DNA of 27,614 nt from an uncultured Lachnospiraceae bacterium. GTDB taxonomy: Bacteria > Bacillota > Clostridia > Lachnospirales > Lachnospiraceae. Of the stretch, positions 2,168 through 27,614 are shown in pieces (within the stretch, counting starts at the first letter, position 1; each line of letters starts with the position of its first letter). The position numbers were made by a program, and so were the translations under genes. The stretch covers positions 1-27,614 of the forward strand of contig CADCOL010000054.1 in assembly GCA_902803015.1 (NCBI GenBank), given 5' to 3'. The notes under the pieces were generated by a model, which saw nothing but the letters and a program-made list of their open reading frames with translations, did not search any database and had not been told where the DNA came from.

Positions 2168-3034
2168 ATGTTCCGCTTGTGGTGTATTCTGATCGGTTAT
2201 GCCTGTGGACTTGTTTCGACCGCTTATATCGTCGGAAAAGTGCACGGAATCGATATACGCGAACACGGATCCGGTAATGCGGGAACCACGAATACGCTTC
2301 GTGTTCTCGGCCGCCGTGCCGGCGCCATAGTTCTGGCGGGAGACGTATGCAAATGCCTCCTGGCGGTTTTTGTATGCTTTTTAATCTTCCACAATATGGA
2401 AGGATATGACAGTTATAAATATCTGATTCGAATCTATGCTTCCGCAGGTACCATTCTGGGGCATAATTATCCTTTTTACTTAAAATTCAGAGGCGGAAAG
2501 GGCATGGCATGCTTTGTCGGCATGGCCATTGCTTTCCTGTATTTTCCGATTTATCCGGGACAGATTATTCTGTTCTTTGCGATATTTTTCCTGACACATT
2601 ACGTGTCTTTGGGAAGTATTTTCTTCGGACTCGGATTCTTTGCTCAGGTTGTGATTTTCGGTACATTCGGTTTCTTCGGATTAAGTCCTGCCTGCCTGAT
2701 TGAATTGTATTCGCTGGTCGGAGCGCTGGCATTATTAATGATTTTCCAGCATCGAAAGAATATTGTGAATTTGATTAACCGTACGGAAAAGAAGACCTTC
2801 CTCGGAAAGAAACGCGAGCGACCCGAGATATATGATGAGGTCGAAGAAGGGAACGATAACGAATCCGATGATGATAACGAAGACGCAGATGATACTGAAG
2901 AAGCAGATGATTCTGCAGAATCGAAAGAAAAAGTTTCAGAGGGCCTGACGGAAGAAAAGACATTAAAATTATCAGAGGAAGAACTCGAAGAGATAAAAGA
3001 AAAAACTTCATCGAAAGAGGAGGAATTAAAATGA
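2168..3034 (+). CDS. plsY: Glycerol-3-phosphate acyltransferase PlsY with acidic C-terminal tail
   Basis: PlsY is an integral membrane enzyme that transfers an acyl group from acyl-phosphate to glycerol-3-phosphate, the first step of phosphatidic acid synthesis. Residues 1-210 form the usual enzyme with several hydrophobic segments. The family motifs are GSGNAGTTNTLR (34-45), GHNYPFYLKFRGGKG (98-112) and the HRKNIVNLINR region (195-205). At 288 residues it is about 80 longer than ordinary PlsY. The excess is a cytoplasmic-looking tail (about 213-288) made almost only of Asp, Glu, Ser and Lys, probably disordered. The tail codons also carry the ribosome-binding site for gpsA, whose ATG overlaps the stop (ATGA). 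The next enzyme in the pathway context, GpsA, makes its substrate. Confidence 0.95.
   Translation: MFRLWCILIGYACGLVSTAYIVGKVHGIDIREHGSGNAGTTNTLRVLGRRAGAIVLAGDVCKCLLAVFVCFLIFHNMEGYDSYKYLIRIYASAGTILGHNYPFYLKFRGGKGMACFVGMAIAFLYFPIYPGQIILFFAIFFLTHYVSLGSIFFGLGFFAQVVIFGTFGFFGLSPACLIELYSLVGALALLMIFQHRKNIVNLINRTEKKTFLGKKRERPEIYDEVEEGNDNESDDDNEDADDTEEADDSAESKEKVSEGLTEEKTLKLSEEELEEIKEKTSSKEEELK
3014..3023 (+). promoter_or_regulatory. Ribosome-binding site of gpsA inside the plsY acidic tail
   Basis: AAAGAGGAGG lies 7 bases before the gpsA ATG (3031). In the plsY frame it is read as Lys-Glu-Glu plus the start of another Glu codon, so the acidic tail and a near-perfect Shine-Dalgarno sequence are the same bases. 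With the ATGA overlap this suggests translational coupling. Confidence 0.8.
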
Positions 3035-4038
3035 AAACTGCTGTAATCGGTGCGGGAAGCTGGGGAATCGCCCTTGCAAAACTGCTTCATACAAACGGAC
3101 ATCAGGTTGCGGTATGGTCTGCGCTGGCGGATGAAATCGCAATGTTAAACGAAAACCACGAGCATGTGGATAAATTAAAAGGCGTAAAACTGCCGGAAGA
3201 CATGATTTTTACAACCGATCTCGCAGGTGCCGTAAAGGATGCCGAGATTCTGGTGATGGCGGTTCCGTCCGTATTCGTTCGTTCTTCGGCAAAACAGTTA
3301 AAGGAATTCTACAAACCCGGTCAGATTATCGTAAACGTGGCAAAGGGTATCGAAGAATCCACACTGTTTACGATGACACAGATTATCGAGGATGAAATCC
3401 CGGGTTCCACGGTTGCGGTATTATCCGGACCTTCCCATGCGGAAGAAGTTGGACGCGGAATTCCGACTACAATCGTAGTTGGTGCAAAGAAGCGAGAAGT
3501 TGCGGAAAAAGTTCAGGAAGTCTTCATGAGCCCTGTTTTCCGTGTTTATACATCACCCGATGTTCTCGGAATTGAAATCGGTGCAGCGTTGAAAAACGTT
3601 GTGGCTCTTGCTGCCGGTGTTGCGGACGGTCTCGGATACGGAGACAACACGAAGGCTGCTTTAATCACCAGAGGTATGGCGGAAATATCCAGACTCGGTG
3701 TTGCGATGGGCGGGAAAAGCGAAACATTTTACGGTCTTTCCGGTATCGGTGACTTAATCGTTACCTGCGCAAGTATGCATTCAAGAAACCGCAGGGCCGG
3801 AATCTTAATCGGTAAAGGTTATACCGCAAAAGAAGCCATGGATGAAGTAAAAATGGTTGTCGAAGGTGTGTATTCCGCAAAAGCGGCAAAGAAGCTTTCC
3901 GAAAAATATGAAATCGAAATGCCGATTGTCAATATCGTCAACGAAGTTCTGTTTGAAGAACGTCCCGCGGCAGACTGCTTAAAAGATCTGATGCTTCGTG
4001 ACAAGAAGACCGAAATCGATGTGGAGAAGTGGCAATGA
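3031..4038 (+). CDS. gpsA: NAD(P)-dependent glycerol-3-phosphate dehydrogenase
   Basis: GpsA reduces dihydroxyacetone phosphate to sn-glycerol-3-phosphate in the cytoplasm, supplying the backbone for phospholipids. The 335-residue length is normal. The N-terminal Rossmann motif is GAGSWG (7-12). Downstream are NVAKGIE with Lys105, SGPSHAEEV (132-140), and the catalytic Lys188 in ALKNVVALAAG, followed by the GYGDNTKAALITRG substrate-site segment (202-215). All key residues appear present. The ATG overlaps the plsY stop, and a strong AGGAGG site lies 7 bases upstream. It makes the substrate of the PlsY encoded just before, so the pair forms a small phospholipid-initiation unit. Confidence 0.97.
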   Translation: MKTAVIGAGSWGIALAKLLHTNGHQVAVWSALADEIAMLNENHEHVDKLKGVKLPEDMIFTTDLAGAVKDAEILVMAVPSVFVRSSAKQLKEFYKPGQIIVNVAKGIEESTLFTMTQIIEDEIPGSTVAVLSGPSHAEEVGRGIPTTIVVGAKKREVAEKVQEVFMSPVFRVYTSPDVLGIEIGAALKNVVALAAGVADGLGYGDNTKAALITRGMAEISRLGVAMGGKSETFYGLSGIGDLIVTCASMHSRNRRAGILIGKGYTAKEAMDEVKMVVEGVYSAKAAKKLSEKYEIEMPIVNIVNEVLFEERPAADCLKDLMLRDKKTEIDVEKWQ

Positions 4039-17852: not shown

Positions 17853-18857
17853 ATGATGAACGACAAAAAGATTCTGTTTTCCGGAATGCAGGCAACCGGC
17901 TCCTTAACGCTCGGAAATTATCTCGGAGCATTGAAGAACTGGTTAAACCTTTGCGACGATTACGAGTGCTTTTACTCGGTAGTAGATCTTCATTCCATTA
18001 CGGTTCGACAGGACCCGGCAGAACTTCGAAAGAAAGCAAGAAATCTTTTAATGCTTTATATTGCGGCAGGTCTGGATCCCGAAAAGAACTGCATTTATTA
18101 TCAGTCCCATGTCAGCGGACATGCGGAACTTGCATGGATTCTCAACTGCTTTACCTATATGGGCGAATTAAACCGCATGACGCAGTTTAAGGATAAATCC
18201 GCAAAGCATGCGGACAATATCAATGCGGGACTCTTTACGTATCCCGTACTGATGGCATCGGATATTTTACTTTATCAGACGGATGTGGTTCCGGTCGGAA
18301 AAGACCAGCTTCAGCATCTGGAACTGACCAGAGACATAGCGATTCGTTTCAATTCCATTTACGGTGACGTATTTACCGTACCCGAACCGTATCTCGGAAA
18401 AGCCGGAGCGAAAATCATGTCCTTACAGGATCCGACCAAGAAAATGTCCAAATCCGACGAGAACCCGAATGCGAGCATTTACTTAACGGATGACCGTGAT
18501 ACCGTAATTCGCAAATTCAAACGTGCGGTAACCGATTCCGAAGCAAGAATTCATTACTGTGAAGAACAGCCCGGTGTATCCAACCTGATTGAAATTTACG
18601 GTGCGGTTACCGGAAAGACCTTTGAAGAAGTCGAAAAAGAATTCGAAGGCAAGGGTTACGGTGATTTTAAACTTGCCGTAGGCGAGGCGGTAGCAGACCT
18701 CTTAACACCGCTTCAGACAAGATTTAACGAGCTTTCTCAGGATAAGGCTTATATCGATAAGATTATCAAAGAAAACGGCGAAAAAGCGGATTATTATGCA
18801 ACCAAGACGCTTCGCAAGGTACAGAAGAAAGTCGGCTTCCCCGAGAGAATCCGCTGA
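17853..18857 (+). CDS. trpS: Tryptophanyl-tRNA synthetase
   Basis: The class I synthetase charges tRNA-Trp as a homodimer. The 334-residue length is standard. The HIGH-equivalent is TLGN (19-22) in FSGMQATGSLTLGNYLGAL, and the KMSKS loop is exact (197-201, KKMSKSDENP). The Trp/ATP pocket segments YQTDVVPVGKDQLQHLELTRD (about 141-161) are conserved. Two ATG codons open the frame (17853 and 17856); either is possible and the difference is one Met. The upstream ribosome-binding site is weak (GTGAGA). It sits between the GH13-like gene and the A-T-R gene, with a 47-base gap downstream. No functional link to either neighbour is apparent. Confidence 0.96.
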   Translation: MMNDKKILFSGMQATGSLTLGNYLGALKNWLNLCDDYECFYSVVDLHSITVRQDPAELRKKARNLLMLYIAAGLDPEKNCIYYQSHVSGHAELAWILNCFTYMGELNRMTQFKDKSAKHADNINAGLFTYPVLMASDILLYQTDVVPVGKDQLQHLELTRDIAIRFNSIYGDVFTVPEPYLGKAGAKIMSLQDPTKKMSKSDENPNASIYLTDDRDTVIRKFKRAVTDSEARIHYCEEQPGVSNLIEIYGAVTGKTFEEVEKEFEGKGYGDFKLAVGEAVADLLTPLQTRFNELSQDKAYIDKIIKENGEKADYYATKTLRKVQKKVGFPERIR

Positions 18858-18904: not shown

Positions 18905-21856
18905 ATGAATAAGATGCTTGCGGACTTGCAGGAGTTCGTATTCGAAATCAATAAAAACTACCGTGACAAAACGGCCTATCGTTATATCGAGAACGATCGC
19001 ATTGTCGATAAAAGTTTCGCTGATTTAACGAGGGATTGTTTTGCTGTGGCAACTTGGCTGAAAAACTACGGATTAAAAGGGGATAAGGTCGCCATTATCG
19101 GCGGAACTTCGTATCCCTGGATCGTTACGTTTTTGGCGTCAGCCATCGGCGGAAACGTTGTCATTCCGATTGATAAAATGCTTCCGGAAGAAGAGATTCT
19201 TCACCTTTTAAAAGAAGGCGAAGCGCGCGTTGTTTTCGTATCCGAAGAATTCGAACCGTGGATGAAAGACATTCGCGAAACAATCGGAGAACAGGGCGAT
19301 GTATACAGTTTTTCCGGTACGACTTACCGCGAAATGCTGCGTACGGAACGTGAGAAGATTCCCAAAGTAAAGCCCGAAGATCCCTGCCTTTTGCTGTTTA
19401 CATCCGGTACAACCGGAACCGGAAAAGGTGTATTGATTTCCCATAAAAACATCGTGGCAAACATTAACGAGATTTACCGCATGGATTATGGCAGGGAAGT
19501 GGCCGGAGATCCCGTGGTAATGAGTGTTCTGCCGATTTATCATACATTTGAATTAACCGTCGGTAACCTGGGTATTCTTTATACCGGTACCACAATCTGT
19601 ATCAACGACAAGCTTGAAAATGTCGTAGAAAATTTAAAGCGTTTTAAACCTTCCGTAATGGTAGTGGTTCCCGCAATTGCGGAACTGATTTACAAAAAAA
19701 TCATGGAAGCCACCAAAACGCCGAAGAACAAACGTAAAGTCAAATTCGCAAAAAGAATGGACAATACGCTTGGTAAAATCAACATTGATGCCAGAAGATC
19801 TTTATATAAACCGATTTATGAGGCGTTCGGAGGAAATCTTACTACAATTGTAGTCGGAGGAAGTGCGCTTCGCCCCGAAATCGCGAAGACGCTCGATGAA
19901 TTCGGATTCCATATCTATCAGGGATACGGCATGACCGAATGCGCGCCCTTGATTGCGGCCAATTATCCCGGCAATGACAGAATCGGGTCGGTCGGAAAAC
20001 CGGTTTCCTACATGAATGTGAAAATCGTCAACGAAGAAATCCTTCTTCGCGGCGACGGCGTCATGCTTTCTTACTACAATAATCCGGAAGAGAACAAGAA
20101 TGAGTTTGCAGGCGGGTGGTTCCGGACCGGAGACCTCGGTTATATCGATAACGAAGGTTATTTATACATTACCGGACGTGCCAAGAACTTAATCATTCTC
20201 GATAACGGTAAGAATATTTATCCGGAAGAGATTGAGGGTTATCTTTTGAAAATTCCCGGCGTAAAAGATGCGTTTGTTTATGAGGACGTTGGTAAAATCT
20301 CCGCACTGATTGTTCCGGAATCCATGAAGGAAGCAACCATCCGCGAGATTAAAAGCGGAATTCGCGAACTGAATGACAAAGTTCCCGCATACAAGCGTGT
20401 GGTAGGCCTTTCTTTCCGCCCTTCGGATCTTCCGAAAACCACGACCTTAAAGACAAAACGAAATGAAGTCTTAAAGTGGATTAAAGAAAAGAACGAGGAA
20501 AAGAAAGCGGAATACATTGCACCGACAACGGCAGAGCAGAAGCGCCTTGTGGTTGCCATGGAGCAGGTCCTTCATGTGACGAAAATCGGAATTAAGGACG
20601 ATTTCTTCGAACGCGGCGGCGATTCCATGTCCGCACTCGAATTTGCCACGATTATCGGCGTTCAGGCGCAGGATATCTACGAATATCCCACGGTTGAACT
20701 GTTGGAAGAAATGATTCTGAACAGTCAGTCCGTCGAGAATACCGAAGAGACGAAAGTCGACGTAAACGAACTGATTCGTCACAACAACGATTTAATCGTA
20801 AGCACGGAACCGCAATGTGTATTGCTGACCGGTGCGACCGGATTCCTGGGTGCACATATTTTAAGAGAACTTTTACAGAAAAATCTCAAGGTGGTATGTC
20901 TTGTAAGAAACGTGGATAAACTGCGTCCCACCTTACGTGCTTATTTCCCGAAAGAGTACGAATCGTTTTCTTATAAAACCGTGAAGGGAGACATTGAACT
21001 TCCGAGATTCGGACTCAGTGATACGGAATACGAGGTTTTGTGCAACAGAGTGGACATGGTATTCCATGTGGCAGCCAATGTGCATCATGCCGGACATTAT
21101 GAGGATTTTGAACGCTCGAATGTTTTGGGAACACAGCATGTCATCGATTTTTGCGTGGATGCGAATGCAGTGCTGCAGCATACTTCCACGGCAAGTGTCA
21201 GCGGCTCGGGTACGGTGGAAATTAAAAATGCCGATGCCAAATTCGATGAATTCACTCTGGATATCGGACAGAAATATACCCAGAATGTGTATATTCATTC
21301 CAAATACAAATCCGAAGAACGTGTTCTTCTTGCAAGAGAGAACGGACTTCGGGCGAATATTTTCCGTATCGGCAATCTTACCTGGCGTATTTCGGACGGT
21401 AAATTCCAGATCAATGCGGATGATAACGGCTTCCTCGAGAGATTAAAAGGTATTCTGAAGGTTCGTTTGTATTCGAATGAAATTGCGGATTATCCGATTG
21501 ATTTTACACCGGTGGATGAATGCGCGAAAGCATATGTTTTACTGGCTTTGAACCACCATGTGAATAATATTTACAACCTTTACAATCCGAATATTTACAA
21601 TATCGAACAGCTTAGCAAGAAGTTTATGCTTCATGCAAAACGTGTGCCGAGAGAATTGTTTGAAAAGAGTCTGCGCGAGCAGATTCATGATAAGAGCGTT
21701 ATGGTTTTATCCTTCTATAACGCGATTGCGTCCTCATCGAAGAATATTCCGATGAGTAACGAATATACAAACGCAGAACTGAACAAACTCGGTTTTAAAT
21801 GGAGTAAAATCGGGCTTTCCTACCTTCGTTTTGTAAAAGGATTTATCAAACTTTAA
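18905..21856 (+). CDS. Adenylation-carrier-reductase (A-T-R) enzyme, carboxylic-acid-reductase-like
   Basis: Three domains are visible in 983 residues. The adenylation domain (about 1-530) has LLFTSGTTGTGKGV (163-176), YGMTECAP (341-348), GWFRTGDLGY (404-413) and GKNIYPEEIE (435-444), and most resembles long-chain acyl-CoA synthetases. A carrier domain (about 542-605) has the phosphopantetheine site DDFFERGGDSMSAL, with Ser574. A thioester-reductase domain (about 636-983) has the NAD(P)H motif GATGFLG (643-649) and the YxxxK pair Tyr796/Lys800. This layout matches carboxylic acid reductases and Lys2: activate an acid as adenylate, load it on the arm, release it reductively as aldehyde or alcohol. 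No condensation domain is present. The fatty-acid-like A domain suggests a lipid substrate. AAAGGGG precedes the ATG. Confidence 0.87.
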   Translation: MNKMLADLQEFVFEINKNYRDKTAYRYIENDRIVDKSFADLTRDCFAVATWLKNYGLKGDKVAIIGGTSYPWIVTFLASAIGGNVVIPIDKMLPEEEILHLLKEGEARVVFVSEEFEPWMKDIRETIGEQGDVYSFSGTTYREMLRTEREKIPKVKPEDPCLLLFTSGTTGTGKGVLISHKNIVANINEIYRMDYGREVAGDPVVMSVLPIYHTFELTVGNLGILYTGTTICINDKLENVVENLKRFKPSVMVVVPAIAELIYKKIMEATKTPKNKRKVKFAKRMDNTLGKINIDARRSLYKPIYEAFGGNLTTIVVGGSALRPEIAKTLDEFGFHIYQGYGMTECAPLIAANYPGNDRIGSVGKPVSYMNVKIVNEEILLRGDGVMLSYYNNPEENKNEFAGGWFRTGDLGYIDNEGYLYITGRAKNLIILDNGKNIYPEEIEGYLLKIPGVKDAFVYEDVGKISALIVPESMKEATIREIKSGIRELNDKVPAYKRVVGLSFRPSDLPKTTTLKTKRNEVLKWIKEKNEEKKAEYIAPTTAEQKRLVVAMEQVLHVTKIGIKDDFFERGGDSMSALEFATIIGVQAQDIYEYPTVELLEEMILNSQSVENTEETKVDVNELIRHNNDLIVSTEPQCVLLTGATGFLGAHILRELLQKNLKVVCLVRNVDKLRPTLRAYFPKEYESFSYKTVKGDIELPRFGLSDTEYEVLCNRVDMVFHVAANVHHAGHYEDFERSNVLGTQHVIDFCVDANAVLQHTSTASVSGSGTVEIKNADAKFDEFTLDIGQKYTQNVYIHSKYKSEERVLLARENGLRANIFRIGNLTWRISDGKFQINADDNGFLERLKGILKVRLYSNEIADYPIDFTPVDECAKAYVLLALNHHVNNIYNLYNPNIYNIEQLSKKFMLHAKRVPRELFEKSLREQIHDKSVMVLSFYNAIASSSKNIPMSNEYTNAELNKLGFKWSKIGLSYLRFVKGFIKL

Positions 21857-21883
21857 AAATCATCTGAAAGGCTGCAAAACAGC

Positions 21884-24850
21884 ATGAGAATCGGTATTGA
21901 TGTCGGCTCCACCACCATTAAATGCGTGGTTCTGGACGAGAACAATCAAATCATTCATAACAGTTATGAGCGTCATTTTGCCATGATTACCGAAAAGACC
22001 AGGGAAGTCATGGAAGGGCTTATTGAGAAATTCGACATTCAGGAACCTGTGTATCTGTCGATTTCCGGATCCGCCGGAATGGGACTTGCGCAGAATGCCG
22101 GAATTCCTTTTATTCAGGAAGTGTATGCAACCAAAGTGGCGGTGGCAAACCGTCTTCCCGAAACGGACTGTGTCATCGAACTCGGTGGCGAGGATGCCAA
22201 GATTCTTTTCTTAAAAGGCAATCTGGAAGTCCGTATGAACGGTACCTGCGCAGGCGGTACCGGTGCTTTTGCCGACCAGATGGCATCTTTGATGAATATC
22301 ACCGGAGATGACATGAACGATCTGGCCGAAAAATCGGATAAAATCTATTCCATCGCATCCCGTTGCGGCGTTTTTGCAAAGACAGACATTCAGCCGCTTT
22401 TGAATCAGGGCGCGAGAAAAGAAGATATTTCCGCAAGTATTTTCAAGGCTATCGTAAACCAGACCATTACAGGTCTTGCACAGGGACACCCGATTGAAGG
22501 CAATATCGTATATCTGGGCGGACCTTTGACCTTTATGTCCTATCTTCGCAAGAGCTTCGACGAAGCTTTGCATTTAAAGGGAACCTTACCGCAGGATTCC
22601 CTTCTTTTTGTGGCTTTGGGTGCCGCATATTACGCAACCGAACCGGTGGATTTAAAAGAAGCGGTAAAGGTAATCGGACAGAAGAAGGAATTCTCTGCGG
22701 AATCCGCGCTGGATCCTCTGTTTAAAGATAAAGCCGAATATGATGCGTTTCTGGAACGCCACAGCAAAGCAACGGTTGTAAAAAGAGAAGATTTTAACCC
22801 CGAAAGCGGAGAGGAAGTCTTCCTCGGAATCGACTCCGGTTCCACCACTTTAAAGCTTGTTCTGATTGACCGGGAAGGCCGGATTTGCTATTCGCGTTAT
22901 ACATCAAACGGCGGACGTCCGATTGACGTTGTCGTGGAACTTTTAAAAGAAATGTACGAGAAGTATCCTTCGTTAAAGGTAACGCGTGCGGCGGTTACCG
23001 GTTACGGCGAGGAAATGATGAAATCCGCGCTCGGCATTGACTTGGGAATCGTGGAAACGGTTGCCCATTTTACGGCTGCAAAGTTTTTCCTTCCCGATGT
23101 GGAATTTATTATCGACATCGGCGGACAGGACATGAAATGCTTTAAAATCCGAAACGGCGCGATTGACAATATTTTCTTAAACGAAGCGTGTTCCTCGGGT
23201 TGCGGATCTTTTTTACAGACTTTTGCACAGTCATTGGGATATCCGATTGACGAATTCGCAAAAATCGGTCTGTTCGGTAAATCTCCCGTGGATCTGGGTT
23301 CAAGATGTACCGTATTCATGAATTCTTCGGTAAAGCAGGCGCAGAAGGAAGGCGTATCCGTGGAAGATATTTCCGCAGGCCTTTCCTACAGTGTTGTTAA
23401 GAATGCGCTTTACAAGGTTATTCGTGTGCATACCGCAAAGGAACTCGGCGAACGAATCGTGGTTCAGGGCGGAACCTTCTTAAACGACGCAGTTTTGCGT
23501 GCATTTGAAAAAGAGCTCGGTGTAAATGTTATCCGTCCCGATATCGCAGGTATGATGGGCGCATACGGCGCAGCGCTCTATGCAAAAGACAGCAAAGTCA
23601 GTGCGGAAGAAAGCGCAAGCCTGATTACCAAAGAAGAGCTGGATGCGTTTACGTATGAAACCAAGAGCATTAACTGTAACGGTTGCAACAATCATTGCAA
23701 TTTAACGGTCAATACATTCCCCGGCGGACGCAAATTTATCGGCGGAAACAAGTGCGAAAAGCCGGTTACGAAGAAATCGGCGGACAATTCGCTGAATCTG
23801 TATGAATATAAAATCCAGTATTTTAAGGATTTACTGGGGAATGCAGCCAATAAGGCCGATGTGCAAAGCACCTGTTCGTCATCAAAGAAGACCGTCGGTC
23901 TTCCTTTGGCGCTCAACATGTACGAGATGTTCCCGTTCTGGCATGCGCTGTTTACGAATCTCGGTTATGAAGTAAAGATTTCCGGTTTCTCAAACCGTGC
24001 GATGTATATCAAAGGACAGGGCACCATCCCTTCGGATACGGTATGTTTCCCGGCTAAAATGGTTCACGGGCACATCATGCAGCTGATCGAAGAGGAAGTG
24101 GATTATATTTTCTTCCCCTGCCTGACGTTTAATTTTAACGAAAAGCGCGGTGAGAACCATTATAACTGTGCGGTAATCGCAGGTTATCCCGAGGTAATCA
24201 AAGTAAATATCCGTGATTTCGGCAAATCCAAATATGTCTGTGAATATTTAGGACCGCATAATCCGGCGCATTTTGAAAAATGCATGTATGACCTGATTAA
24301 CAAAGAATTCGAGCCGGCTTCCAGGAAGGAAGTAAGCAAAGCAGTGGAAGCGGCGTATGTGGCTTACGATAAATACATGAAAGCGGTTGCAAATAAAGCG
24401 GATGAAATTATCGAATCCGCCAGAGAACAGGGCAAGAAGATTGTCTGCCTTGCAGGAAGACCGTATCATACGGATCCGGAGATTAACCATGGAATTCATA
24501 AACTGGTTGCGGAACTCGGATTTGCCGTTGTAAGCGAAGATTCCATCAGCTTAAAGATGAAGAACTTAAAACTGAATCTTCGGAATCAGTGGACCTATCA
24601 TGCGAGACTGTTCTCGGCGGCCGGATATATCACAACTCAGCCGGATATGTATCTGGTACATCTGGTTTCCTTCGGCTGCGGCCTGGATGCAATTACGACC
24701 GATGAGGTTCGCAGCATCCTCGAATCCGAAGGACATCTGTATACGCAGATTAAAATCGATGAGGTTACCAACCTCGGTGCGGTTAAAATCCGCTTAAGAA
24801 GTCTTCTTGCCGCGATCAAACAGGCGGAAGACGCAAAAAACAATCAGTAG
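21884..24850 (+). CDS. Double 2-hydroxyacyl-CoA-dehydratase activase with DUF2229 (PlsA-like)
   Basis: Two BadF/BcrA-type ATPase modules are fused. The first (about 1-255) has GIDVGSTTIK (4-13) and cysteines Cys122 (NGTCAGGTGAF) and Cys161 (SRCGVFAKTD). The second (about 312-570) has GIDSGSTTLK (315-324), Cys436/Cys440 (NEACSSGCGSF) and Cys475 (SRCTVFMNS). In the HgdC dimer the equivalent cysteines hold one shared [4Fe-4S] cluster, so the tandem copy could build it within one chain. A cysteine knuckle (Cys598, Cys601, Cys605, with Cys624) follows, then a DUF2229 domain (about 670-890) with more cysteines (TVCFPAK, FFPCLTF). The layout matches PlsA of the clostridial plasmalogen operon. Related proteins of about 1400 residues include the next gene's product in the same chain. 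Strictly anaerobic chemistry is expected. Confidence 0.85.
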   Translation: MRIGIDVGSTTIKCVVLDENNQIIHNSYERHFAMITEKTREVMEGLIEKFDIQEPVYLSISGSAGMGLAQNAGIPFIQEVYATKVAVANRLPETDCVIELGGEDAKILFLKGNLEVRMNGTCAGGTGAFADQMASLMNITGDDMNDLAEKSDKIYSIASRCGVFAKTDIQPLLNQGARKEDISASIFKAIVNQTITGLAQGHPIEGNIVYLGGPLTFMSYLRKSFDEALHLKGTLPQDSLLFVALGAAYYATEPVDLKEAVKVIGQKKEFSAESALDPLFKDKAEYDAFLERHSKATVVKREDFNPESGEEVFLGIDSGSTTLKLVLIDREGRICYSRYTSNGGRPIDVVVELLKEMYEKYPSLKVTRAAVTGYGEEMMKSALGIDLGIVETVAHFTAAKFFLPDVEFIIDIGGQDMKCFKIRNGAIDNIFLNEACSSGCGSFLQTFAQSLGYPIDEFAKIGLFGKSPVDLGSRCTVFMNSSVKQAQKEGVSVEDISAGLSYSVVKNALYKVIRVHTAKELGERIVVQGGTFLNDAVLRAFEKELGVNVIRPDIAGMMGAYGAALYAKDSKVSAEESASLITKEELDAFTYETKSINCNGCNNHCNLTVNTFPGGRKFIGGNKCEKPVTKKSADNSLNLYEYKIQYFKDLLGNAANKADVQSTCSSSKKTVGLPLALNMYEMFPFWHALFTNLGYEVKISGFSNRAMYIKGQGTIPSDTVCFPAKMVHGHIMQLIEEEVDYIFFPCLTFNFNEKRGENHYNCAVIAGYPEVIKVNIRDFGKSKYVCEYLGPHNPAHFEKCMYDLINKEFEPASRKEVSKAVEAAYVAYDKYMKAVANKADEIIESAREQGKKIVCLAGRPYHTDPEINHGIHKLVAELGFAVVSEDSISLKMKNLKLNLRNQWTYHARLFSAAGYITTQPDMYLVHLVSFGCGLDAITTDEVRSILESEGHLYTQIKIDEVTNLGAVKIRLRSLLAAIKQAEDAKNNQ

Positions 24851-24874
24851 ATTTAAGAAACGCAAAGGATAGTT

Positions 24875-26158
24875 ATGGAAAGCGTTACTCTGAAACAATA
24901 CAAAAAAAGAGTTGAATACAGCCTGAAAATGAAACGGGAGAAATATACCATTCTGATTCCGGAAATGGCGCCGCTTCATTTTCGCTTAATCAAGCCGATT
25001 CTCGCACGCGACGGATATAATACCGCATTGATGGGCGATGAAGGGCCGGAAGTACTTAAAAAAGGCCTGCAGTACGTTCATAACGATATCTGTTATCCCT
25101 GCCTTTTGATTACCGGTCAGATGCTGACCGCAATGGAAAGCGGCAAATACGACCCGAACAAGGTTGCCATGATGATTACCCAGTCGGGCGGCGGATGCAG
25201 GGATTCAAACTATATCAACCTGATGCGCAAGGCATTTGAAAAGGCCGGATATCCGAATGTGCCGTTTATTTCCGCAAATACCTGGTTTATGGAGTATAAC
25301 AGCGGCGTTCTGATGCGATTTTCCACACTGTTTATGGCAGTGGCCGGAATGGTTTACGGCGATTTTCTTATGATTCTCGGCAATCAGGTTCGTCCGTATG
25401 AGAATCACAAGGGTGATACCGATGCGCTGATTGACTCCTGGATCAATAAGCTGATTGACCAGTTTGAACACGGCAGAGGATATACCAGGAAAGCCATGCG
25501 AAAGAACCTGCATGCGATGGGAGAGGATTTTACAAAGATCGAAAAGACTTTGACTCCCAAGGTCAAGGTGGCAATCGTCGGGGAATTGTTCCTAAAATAT
25601 TCGATTCCCGGTAACAATCACTTAGAAGAGTTCCTTGTATCGCAGGATTGCGAATACTACATGCCGAGTATGCTCGGCTTCGGTGTATACAAAACCAACG
25701 GCGCTTTGGAAGAGTTAAAGAAATTCGGCGGAAAGCCGCTTAAACATCTTACGATGGAAATCGCCATGAAATGGTACTTCGGAATCGAAGACCTTCTGAT
25801 TTCCGCCATAGAAGAATTTCCGGAGTTTACCGCACCGGAGCGTGTCCGCGATCTGATGAAGCGTTCCGAAGGCATTCTCGATATCGCAAACAGCATGGGA
25901 GAGGGCTGGTATGTAGCAGCCGAAATCCTGGAATTTGCGGAACACGGTTATGAAAACATTGTCTGCGTGCAGCCGTTCGGATGTCTGCCCTGTCATGTGG
26001 CCGTAAAAGGCGTACTGAACAAAGTTCGTCAAATCAATCCGAAGGTTAATGCGGTTGATATCGAATACGATCCCGGTGCGACAAAAGTAAACCAGGAAAA
26101 CCGTATAAAACTGATGCTTGCCGTGGCCAAGGAAAACCTTGAAAACGAAAATCGTTAA
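24875..26158 (+). CDS. 2-hydroxyacyl-CoA dehydratase-like Fe-S subunit (PlsR-like)
   Basis: The 427-residue protein matches the dehydratase D-component family. Conserved cysteine sites are NDICYPCLLITGQ (Cys73, Cys76), QSGGGCRDSNY (Cys108) and VQPFGCLPCHVAVKG (Cys370, Cys373), which would hold an iron-sulfur cluster. It starts 24 bases after the double activase gene with an AAGGAT-type ribosome-binding site. Together the two proteins (988 and 427 residues) add up to the about 1400-residue single-chain homologues of other bacteria, so they are almost certainly partners. In Clostridium perfringens a pair of this kind (PlsA/PlsR) is needed for plasmalogen formation, converting an ester to a vinyl-ether lipid. 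That role here is inferred from domain layout. A conventional hydroxyacyl-CoA dehydratase is less likely because the second dehydratase subunit is absent. Confidence 0.83.
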   Translation: MESVTLKQYKKRVEYSLKMKREKYTILIPEMAPLHFRLIKPILARDGYNTALMGDEGPEVLKKGLQYVHNDICYPCLLITGQMLTAMESGKYDPNKVAMMITQSGGGCRDSNYINLMRKAFEKAGYPNVPFISANTWFMEYNSGVLMRFSTLFMAVAGMVYGDFLMILGNQVRPYENHKGDTDALIDSWINKLIDQFEHGRGYTRKAMRKNLHAMGEDFTKIEKTLTPKVKVAIVGELFLKYSIPGNNHLEEFLVSQDCEYYMPSMLGFGVYKTNGALEELKKFGGKPLKHLTMEIAMKWYFGIEDLLISAIEEFPEFTAPERVRDLMKRSEGILDIANSMGEGWYVAAEILEFAEHGYENIVCVQPFGCLPCHVAVKGVLNKVRQINPKVNAVDIEYDPGATKVNQENRIKLMLAVAKENLENENR

Positions 26159-26185: not shown

Positions 26186-26214
26186 TTGACAGTTTATAGG
26201 TTATTTTTTATAAT
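26186..26214 (+). promoter_or_regulatory. Perfect consensus sigma-A promoter of the kinase gene
   Basis: TTGACA (26186-26191), a 17-base spacer and TATAAT (26209-26214) match the consensus at all 12 positions. Transcription would start near 26221, giving a leader of about 65 bases before the kinase ATG. The promoter begins 27 bases after the preceding stop, and I see no convincing terminator between the two genes. Confidence 0.88.
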
Positions 26215-26286
26215 TATTCTGTGTGTTTTTGTGTGTAAAATCCATATTTTGCACAAATCATCATAAAACATTTTGTGGAGGAGAAT

Positions 26287-27614
26287 ATGGGGGAATTGAA
26301 TGAAAAATATCCTCTGGCGTTGCCTGTTGGAACAGTTCTTGCCGGACAGTATGTAATTCAGAAGGTTCTGGGCCAGGGCGGCTTCGGAATCACTTATGCT
26401 GCAGTGGACCATAAGGACGGAAGAAAAGTTGCCGTAAAGGAATTCTTCCCGGACAGCATGGCAACCAGAACAAATGCCACAACGGTTACTCCTTTCTCGG
26501 GAGAACGCGGCGATTCTTACCAATACGGTAAAACCTGCTTCCTGAAAGAAGCGGAGACTCTGGCACAGTTTATCGGAAACGAAAACATCGTGCGCATTCA
26601 CAGCTATTTCGAAGAATACGGAACGGCCTATTTCGTAATGGACTTCGTGGAAGGAACTTCCTTTGACCAGTACATTCGCGAACGCGGCGGAAGGATTTCC
26701 TTTGAAGATGCAAAGAAAATTCTGGTTCCCATCATGGACGCACTTGCTGTAGTTCACAGCAAGGGCATTATTCACCGTGATGTAACACCGGATAATATTT
26801 ATATTACAAAAGAGGGCGTTGTAAAACTTCTTGACTTCGGTGCCGCAAGATATTCCCTCGGTGATAAGAGCCGAAGCCTTGACGTTGTATTAAAGCACGG
26901 TTTTGCTCCGAAGGAGCAGTACACCCGTCACGGCAAACAGGGCCCTTACACGGACGTTTATGCACTCGGTGCAACCTTCTATTATGCCATGACCGGAAAG
27001 CGTCCGCCCGATTCCGTAGAACGTCTGGATGAAGACGATCTCGTTCCTCCCAGCGCGCTCGGCGTATCGATTGATGCCGCATCGGAAGATGCAATTCTGA
27101 AGGCATTGGCTGTTCAGGCATCCGATCGTTATCAGAACATGAATCAGTTTAAACAGGGATTACTCGGTGCATCCGGCGCTGTCGGTGCAACCGTAGCCGG
27201 AGCAGCGGTAGCGGGAGCAGCTGCAGCCGCAGCGGCAACACCTGTTCAGCAGACATATTTTACGGCTCCTGCAGCGACTCCTGTCGCACCCGCAGCTCCT
27301 GTAGCACCCGCGCAGCCTGTTGGAGCAACAGCAGCAGCACCTGTAGCGCCTGCACAGCCTGTCGGAGCGACCACTGCCGCAGCTGCACAGCCCGTAATGC
27401 CGAGCCGGCAGATTACGCCGTCTCAGCAAATTACTCCTTCACAGCAGATTGCGCCGTCTCAGCAGATTACGCCGTCTCAGCAGATTACGCCGAGCCAGCA
27501 GATTCCGGCATCCGGATCCGCACCCGTAGGTCAGACCGTGGCAAGTTCCGCAGCAGCTCCTTACGGTGCAACACAGGGAGTACAGCCTTCCGCATCCGCT
27601 CAGCCTGAAAAGAA
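26287..27614 (+). CDS. Serine/threonine protein kinase, 3' end outside window
   Basis: The frame opens at ATG 26287 behind GGAGGAG and runs 442 codons to the window edge without a stop. The kinase domain (about 20-293) is complete: Gly-rich loop LGQGGFGITY (28-37), Lys51 in VAVKEFFP, HRDVTPDN (163-170) with Asp165, DFG (183-185), and the activation segment end FAPKEQY (206-212). GGFGITY plus KEFFP marks the bacterial subfamily often fused to sensor or effector domains. After residue 293 the chain becomes Ala/Pro/Val-rich, with an Ala-rich stretch (about 298-316) that may be a linker or possibly a weak membrane segment, then PVAPAQPVGAT repeats and six PSQQIT repeats. What follows the linker is not in the window. 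Signalling target unknown. Confidence 0.92.
   Translation, partial: MGELNEKYPLALPVGTVLAGQYVIQKVLGQGGFGITYAAVDHKDGRKVAVKEFFPDSMATRTNATTVTPFSGERGDSYQYGKTCFLKEAETLAQFIGNENIVRIHSYFEEYGTAYFVMDFVEGTSFDQYIRERGGRISFEDAKKILVPIMDALAVVHSKGIIHRDVTPDNIYITKEGVVKLLDFGAARYSLGDKSRSLDVVLKHGFAPKEQYTRHGKQGPYTDVYALGATFYYAMTGKRPPDSVERLDEDDLVPPSALGVSIDAASEDAILKALAVQASDRYQNMNQFKQGLLGASGAVGATVAGAAVAGAAAAAAATPVQQTYFTAPAATPVAPAAPVAPAQPVGATAAAPVAPAQPVGATTAAAAQPVMPSRQITPSQQITPSQQIAPSQQITPSQQITPSQQIPASGSAPVGQTVASSAAAPYGATQGVQPSASAQPEK
27400..27507 (+). repeat. Six tandem 18-bp repeats encoding PSQQIT
   Basis: Six in-frame copies of an 18-base unit (type copy CCGTCTCAGCAGATTACG) encode Pro-Ser-Gln-Gln-Ile-Thr with minor changes (Arg for Gln in copy 1, Ala for Thr in copy 3, Pro for Thr in copy 6). 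Copies 4 and 5 are identical at the DNA level while copies 2 and 3 differ by silent changes, so both recent duplication and selection on the peptide are plausible. The array lies in the kinase linker and is a candidate for length variation between strains. Confidence 0.88.

Follow-up and report, generated by a model that had tools for sequence, protein, structure and literature searches.

A conserved gene trio of an A-T-R thioester reductase and a diverged PlsA-PlsR pair with a possible role in ether-lipid synthesis

Why would a predicted acyl-activating reductase be encoded directly in front of two subunits that resemble a plasmalogen synthase? This question is raised by a stretch of 27,614 nt from an uncultured Lachnospiraceae bacterium (assembly GCA_902803015.1, contig CADCOL010000054.1, positions 1 to 27,614), referred to below as the window. 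The first gene of interest (18905..21856, + strand) encodes ATR, a 983 aa adenylation - carrier - thioester reductase (A-T-R) protein identified by domain search. The second (21884..24850) encodes PlsA*, which comprises 988 aa with a double activase and DUF2229 (Act1-Act2-Red1; domain search), DUF2229 or Red1 spanning residues 670-888 (23891..24547). The third (24875..26158) encodes PlsR* (Red2), a 427 aa protein with an HAD/BCR fold according to fold search. PlsAR* designates the linked, derived PlsA-PlsR pair of this trio, with PlsA* and PlsR* as its subunits. All three genes are located on the same strand with gaps of 27 bases (21857-21883) and 24 bases (24851-24874). Gene order and domains confirm what an earlier note on this DNA had described, an A-T-R enzyme 27 bases upstream of a PlsA-/PlsR-like pair. 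The note had proposed co-transcription, and neither promoter-like nor terminator-like sites that would separate the genes were found within the two gaps.

Is the arrangement confined to one genome? A scan of species genomes with 30 aligned ATR proteins as query confirmed 306 stretches, and the top 80 of these were analysed. They comprise 46 loci with ATR relatives (L018-L063; 47 with the window) and 34 loci (L064-L097) matching the ligase part only. Several of the 46 end at contig edges, and in L063 the ligase part is all that is present of ATR. At least 200 bases are available past the ATR stop codon in 43 of the 47 loci. In 37 of these 43, PlsA is the next gene on the same strand with a median gap of 27 bases; the near copies L022 and L023 are both counted. 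PlsA is not next in L049, L051, L052, L053, L054 and L062, with L051 being a rearranged contig end where a PlsA start is still present. PlsR follows PlsA in all 33 loci that reach it (in L027 as a 46-residue fragment at a contig end, found with a lower threshold), and four contigs stop inside PlsA. The genes upstream of the trio fall into 21 clusters over the 36 loci with a known upstream gene, a generous count that includes singletons and a few small frames and in which near relatives share their context. Four clusters recur: cluster 4 in 7 loci, trpS, which is not part of the module, in 6, and two others in 3 each. Every gene family outside the trio is limited to at most 8 of the 47 loci. 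Synteny inertia was considered as the cause of the adjacency and rejected on account of these varying flanks.

The three proteins also have largely concordant trees. For 29 trio loci, the distances of ATR, PlsA and PlsR correlate with r = 0.85 for each pair, a value reached in 0 of 2000 permutations. ATR and PlsA trees have 10 supported splits in common and no conflicts, PlsA and PlsR trees 12 common supported splits and one conflicting pair. Because of the linkage to PlsA (37/43) and PlsR (33/33), the variable flanks and the largely concordant trees, the trio is a unit that is conserved in many genomes and in differing surroundings. This means, the three genes do stay together, a point that the earlier note had proposed to check, and their adjacency extends beyond the window's genome. 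In the 34 ligase-only loci, tblastn found no relative of PlsA, PlsR, alcohol dehydrogenase or the reductase domain within the available flanks; an older link of stand-alone ligases with PlsA was considered, and none was seen among these loci.

Which substrate class does ATR activate? An adenylation (A) domain, assigned to the fatty-acyl ligase type by domain search and profile scores (residues 16-522; 18950..20470), is followed by a phosphopantetheine carrier domain (residues 547-604; 20543..20716) and a thioester reductase (R) domain, NAD_binding_4 (residues 641-876; 20825..21532), both found by domain search. Of thousands of relatives, the best 120 listed, apart from the window's own protein, are 59-85% identical to it. 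Throughout 30 aligned relatives, the A-domain motif L209-P-I, H213-T-F-E-L-T218, Ser574 of the carrier domain (the expected phosphopantetheine attachment site) and Tyr796 and Lys800 of the R domain are invariant. Pfam yielded no match to an acyltransferase domain in ATR at E <= 0.001. The A domain scores 271 bits with PRK06187, a long-chain ligase profile with a cut-off of 476, and 132.2 bits with TIGR01733, an amino-acid adenylation profile with a cut-off of 317.4, and is thus below the cut-off in both cases. By this comparison, an amino-acid A domain was rejected. In amino-acid A domains, an Asp is expected at the A4 position. Searched alone, the A domain best matches acyl- and aryl-CoA ligases and luciferases; by fold, NRPS (nonribosomal peptide synthetase) modules and acyl- and aryl-CoA ligases are found alike. 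Hence, the profile scores favour the acyl activation suggested in the earlier note over activation of an amino acid.

Five loci provide a hint at the product. In L049, L052, L053, L054 and L063, ATR is found beside an iron alcohol dehydrogenase that is encoded downstream on the opposite strand in L049 and upstream on the same strand in the other four. Pfam recognizes Fe-ADH and ADH_Fe_C in the L053 and L049 proteins, and those of L052, L054 and L063 cluster with them. When the L054 dehydrogenase was used as query against the 47 genomes, relatives with 53-57% identity (100% for itself) were detected in exactly these five; all other matches, those in the remaining 42 genomes included, have at most 42% identity. 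The five genomes contain only fused PlsA relatives (42-49% identity). In a midpoint-rooted ATR tree of 45 rows (L015, L016 and L023 are among those omitted), four of the five dehydrogenase-partner ATRs form an outer branch. The fifth, from the Bacteroidota bin of L049, branches inside the trio-type ATRs beside L043. It seems that a trio-type ATR took a dehydrogenase partner in another phylum, unless this bin is mixed. The simplest explanation for a dehydrogenase next to a thioester reductase is that the released product is an aldehyde. The five loci suggest aldehyde release by ATR, with PlsAR* being the alternative partner to the dehydrogenase. At L049 (9974-14168 and 21218-22922), ATR and Fe-ADH have a ParA-like gene and, also nearby, a Cas9-like frame as neighbours, both recognized by eye; this arrangement resembles a case of horizontal transfer or of a mixed bin.

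Is PlsAR* the plasmalogen synthase of its host? The window's genome encodes a second PlsA-PlsR pair (L017, G000:C78, 3116-5206, - strand), whose PlsA is cut by a contig edge. Compared to the window's pair, its PlsA is 49% identical over 259 aligned residues and its PlsR 39%. Its neighbours are a diaminopimelate-decarboxylase-like and a dioxygenase-like gene, both named by eye. Among the 40 other genomes whose ATR is of the trio type (the 46 searched minus five dehydrogenase-partner genomes minus that of L062), 31 have a further PlsA relative with 41-55% identity, i.e. 32 of 41 with the window. All further copies fetched fall outside the linked clade, and such a copy presumably carries out ordinary plasmalogen synthesis. 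In the light of this further, less similar copy, the view of the earlier note that the linked pair is itself the vinyl-ether-forming system is not supported. One further copy, L184 (G170:C94), is a fused PlsA relative of greater divergence (41% identity) that groups with a Haliovirga protein and is possibly another type of ether-lipid enzyme.

The position of the linked pair was determined in quick PlsA/PlsR trees of 69 rows (of 90 loci, 84 have full length; the rows omit a number of near copies and a share of the fused loci, and the partial C78 pair was added) and in careful trees of 47 rows each, with one very long row (Haliovirga). For comparison, records from Listeria, Fusobacterium, Acetoanaerobium, Collinsella, Haliovirga and Subdoligranulum (from a plasmid collection) were included. 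The linked PlsR proteins form one clade (support 100 in the quick and 100/100 in the careful tree), and the linked PlsA proteins do so with identical support. The clade is drawn near split pairs (Subdoligranulum, Fusobacterium, C78 and others), with the deeper order being unsure and several rows long; the fused Listeria, Acetoanaerobium and Collinsella proteins and the common family proteins are on the other side of the tree. In changes per site, the stem of the linked clade measures 0.79 (PlsR) and 0.28 (PlsA) in the quick trees and 0.97 and 0.31 in the careful ones. The corresponding quick-tree values for PlsR and PlsA are 0.43 and 0.36 for the second split copies and 0.14 and 0.09 for the fused family clade. 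Since the PlsR stem is long compared to the PlsA stem, change was concentrated in PlsR at the origin of the linked clade.

Where these changes are located was ascertained by comparing 118 linked-type PlsR proteins with 119 split ones (from the best 120 listed each, out of thousands; over 400 aa) and 39 tree rows; linked-type is defined here by 67-99% identity to the window's PlsR, not by gene linkage. Cysteines C73, C108 and C370 are kept in all three sets. Two residues past Cys108, residue 110 (25202..25204, + strand) is Asp in 118/118 linked-type proteins and Ala in 156 of the 158 others (Ala110Asp). Three residues past Cys370, residue 373 (25991..25993, + strand) is occupied by Cys (112) or Ser (6) in the linked-type proteins and by Asn in 158/158 others (Asn373Cys). 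Residue 259 (25649..25651, + strand) is Cys in all 118 and in 3 of the 158 others, where mostly Ala is found, and residues 104, 131 and 257 likewise differ. None of the 13 cysteines found invariant throughout the comparison set has been lost from PlsA*. Of about 1,000 aligned PlsA* columns, 13 are clade-specific; they are mostly conservative, and three are at most 3 residues away from cysteines 721 and 762. Judging by family and conservation, the cysteines of PlsA* and PlsR* probably hold iron-sulphur clusters. In the fold search, PlsR* was closest to 3o3n, 8s02 and 9gai and displayed the catalytic-subunit fold of the HAD/BCR superfamily, and no solved relatives of PlsR were found by sequence at E <= 1. 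Taken together, the sequences suggest that PlsAR* is a dedicated, diverged paralogue and not the ordinary plasmalogen synthase.

How might the three proteins cooperate? With ATP, ATR would activate a free carboxylic acid, for which a fatty acid is the likeliest candidate, and load the acyl group onto its own phosphopantetheine carrier, from which the NAD(P)H-dependent R domain would release an aldehyde; the domains are observed, the reaction is expected from them. PlsAR* would be an iron-sulphur reductase or dehydratase that is driven by ATP, works at the same carboxyl/aldehyde level and yields a vinyl- or alkyl-ether lipid, either from ATR's aldehyde or beside ATR on the same acyl chains. We tentatively prefer this reading, i.e. 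that the three genes constitute one lipid-modifying module in which a fatty acid is converted into a fatty aldehyde and a derived PlsA-PlsR makes a vinyl-/alkyl-ether lipid, and give it, with substrate, product and coupling all inferred, slightly less than an even chance. Of the aldehyde/alkenyl lipid operon of the earlier note, the conserved unit is supported, but not the pair as vinyl-ether-forming enzyme itself, since PlsAR* has diverged as a paralogue and is altered next to cysteines that were retained. None of the three contrary outcomes named in the note was encountered, the A domain being judged by its profile scores. If true, the module would be an entry of free fatty acids to ether lipids in gut anaerobes. 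It bears on an old report, in the accessible text of PMC9702350, that long-chain aldehydes and not alcohols are used for bacterial plasmalogens. According to the partly accessible literature, anaerobic vinyl-/alkyl-ether lipid synthesis has become known at the gene level only recently (2021 for PlsA-PlsR). A discrete module, clade-specific residues beside reductase-subunit cysteines and a partner swap render the ether-lipid question testable.

Several points weigh against this reading. As described in the accessible parts of PMC8788747 and PMC9131029, PlsA-PlsR converts the sn-1 ester of a diacyl lipid into a vinyl ether; it reduces an ester of a finished phospholipid and, hence, needs no free aldehyde. 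The module contains no acyltransferase. Fatty alcohols from the ElbD reductase domain were undetected (PMC9131029, accessible text). The fixed changes beside the PlsR* cysteines argue for a reaction or substrate unlike plasmalogen synthesis. ATR and PlsR trees have 9 supported splits in common and three conflicting pairs. L062 (9989-13555) encodes a trio-type ATR but lacks both PlsAR* and Fe-ADH, and nine of the 41 genomes (G154, G159, G162, G166, G168, G182, G187, G191, G193) have no further PlsA copy, perhaps as incomplete bins, perhaps by true absence. Finally, the ATR model (mean pLDDT 69.7, pTM 0.48) leaves the A-domain pocket unreadable and the chain length a guess. In L062, a gene for a DUF6935 protein directly follows ATR.

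Three other explanations have to be weighed. PlsAR* could be a substrate-shifted HAD-type enzyme that acts on the carrier-bound acyl thioester of ATR, e.g. by dehydration or one-electron reduction, before the R domain frees a small unsaturated or reduced aldehyde for a natural-product line instead of a membrane lipid. The fixed changes beside the PlsR* cysteines and the long stem would fit, the closest folds belong to HAD/BCR enzymes that use CoA thioesters, and a carrier domain of its own makes a bound intermediate in ATR expected. However, the full-length matches of PlsAR* are PlsA-PlsR-type proteins (the tree contains no CoA-ester dehydratases), no transporter or tailoring gene is widely common among the loci, and the ATR family is also found with an alcohol dehydrogenase; we regard this explanation as rather unlikely. 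Alternatively, the trio might combine a second ether-lipid synthase of the plasmalogen or Ger type with a co-regulated but independent fatty aldehyde- or alcohol-forming enzyme, with no common intermediate. PlsAR* does keep the PlsA-PlsR domain order and the invariant cysteines. According to the accessible text of PMC13274423, some Bacillota have more than one PlsA-like protein, and PlsA cannot yet be separated from Ger by sequence. Yet linkage through changing flanks together with co-inheritance suggests a closer tie, and the mutually exclusive dehydrogenase partner points to a common intermediate. This alternative, too, has a small share of the probability.

The remaining explanation, ATR as an NRPS-like amino-acid reductase next to PlsAR* by historical accident, is very improbable. 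It draws on the A-T-R layout and on the best solved matches, which are NRPS modules for full-length ATR and NRPS structures (AusA, 6vtj) for the R domain, with the AusA reductase domain as best match by sequence. Against it stand the acyl-ligase scores, which exceed those for amino-acid adenylation, the ligase and luciferase matches of the A domain alone and the linkage to PlsA within varied flanks. Beyond the preferred lipid module, a bolder idea can be formulated: PlsAR* might constitute a novel type of radical iron-sulphur enzyme driven by ATP, in which a paralogue of the plasmalogen synthase has been remodelled close to the cluster (Asp110, Cys259 and Cys373 of PlsR*) to accept ATR's aldehyde or carrier-bound acyl group. 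We give this a fair chance, though clearly less than an even one. If true, gut anaerobes would have a lipid route from free fatty acid via aldehyde to ether or other reduced lipid, and relatives whose ATR has an alcohol dehydrogenase in place of PlsAR* would make fatty alcohols instead.

Where does the trio occur? By record titles, the 46 loci belong mostly to Lachnospiraceae or unplaced Clostridia, with a few from Oscillospiraceae, Ruminococcus and Clostridium and one from Paludibacteraceae. A herbivore host or organ is named in 21 of the 46 titles, and ten others have RUG or RUI codes, which we take to be rumen bins. In an even draw of 150 genomes from the window's family, ATR was found at E <= 1e-100 in three, the window's genome included, with at most 5 candidates per genome scored. 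A PlsA relative was detected in 147 of the 150, most listed rows being a single fused frame of some 1,420 residues. The trio is uncommon in this family. Two plasmid-filed records, L103 (NZ_CP030101.1, 2.9 Mb) and L102 (NZ_CP154629.1, 2.6 Mb), are chromosome-like, and 'plasmid' hit counts are to be read accordingly. In the window, trpS (17853..18857, + strand) is located 47 bases upstream of ATR. A sigma-70 promoter match (12/12) at 26186-26214, directly 3' of plsR* and in front of a Ser/Thr kinase gene (26275-27612) that extends past the window end, is likely a marker of the operon end. About 15 kb upstream of the trio, phospholipid genes are found at 2168-4038, encoding a glycerol-3-phosphate acyltransferase (PlsY type) and a glycerol-3-phosphate dehydrogenase.

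How does the trio compare with known systems? Its parts are of known kinds; the ATR-PlsA-PlsR unit, the dedicated altered paralogue and the partner exchange were not found described in the open-access literature. Nor was a paper found there that joins plasmalogen with thioester reductase or thioester reductase with Lachnospiraceae. The closest known counterpart of PlsAR* is the PlsA-PlsR plasmalogen synthase, encoded by CPE1195/1194 in Clostridium perfringens and, in facultative anaerobes (e.g. Enterococcus faecalis), by a fused gene. PlsAR* has the same two-gene order, with PlsR* directly after PlsA*. Its Act1-Act2-Red1 architecture (two BcrAD_BadFG stretches, then DUF2229) is also that of the Listeria protein, and its Red2 has the HAD/BCR fold and three invariant cysteines. 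In contrast to the synthase, it forms a separate clade with a long PlsR stem, has Asp110 and Cys373 for Ala and Asn, is linked to ATR and is usually additional to another PlsA copy. Accepted orthologues have 48-55% (PlsA) and 41-42% (PlsR) identity to the C. perfringens proteins (PMC12838417, accessible text); the window's pair has 47% and 32%, compared here to the fused Listeria protein and not to C. perfringens. The glycerol ester reductase Ger of Thermotogota and Desulfatibacillum is PlsA-like, too, with two activase domains, as in PlsA*, and catalyses an ester-to-ether step with an alkyl ether as product; the accessible part of PMC13274423 mentions no ATR partner, and PlsA* is set beside Ger by description only. 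With carboxylic acid reductases, ATR has the A-T-R order and the expected acid-to-aldehyde chemistry in common, but its 147.5 bits with the corresponding profile NF041592 are far below the cut-off of 1300, so that it may work like such an enzyme without being a member. ElbD from Myxococcus xanthus, also compared by description only, combines ligase, carrier and reductase-like domains and is tied to aldehyde formation and vinyl/alkyl ether lipids: in the accessible text of PMC9131029, disruption of elbD strongly reduced myxobacterial ether lipids, and the mutants were devoid of an i15:0 aldehyde. Unlike ATR with no acyltransferase hit, ElbD has acyltransferase-like and N-terminal FAR1-like domains, and it serves an aerobic pathway in which CarF introduces the vinyl bond, whereas ATR is linked to PlsAR*.

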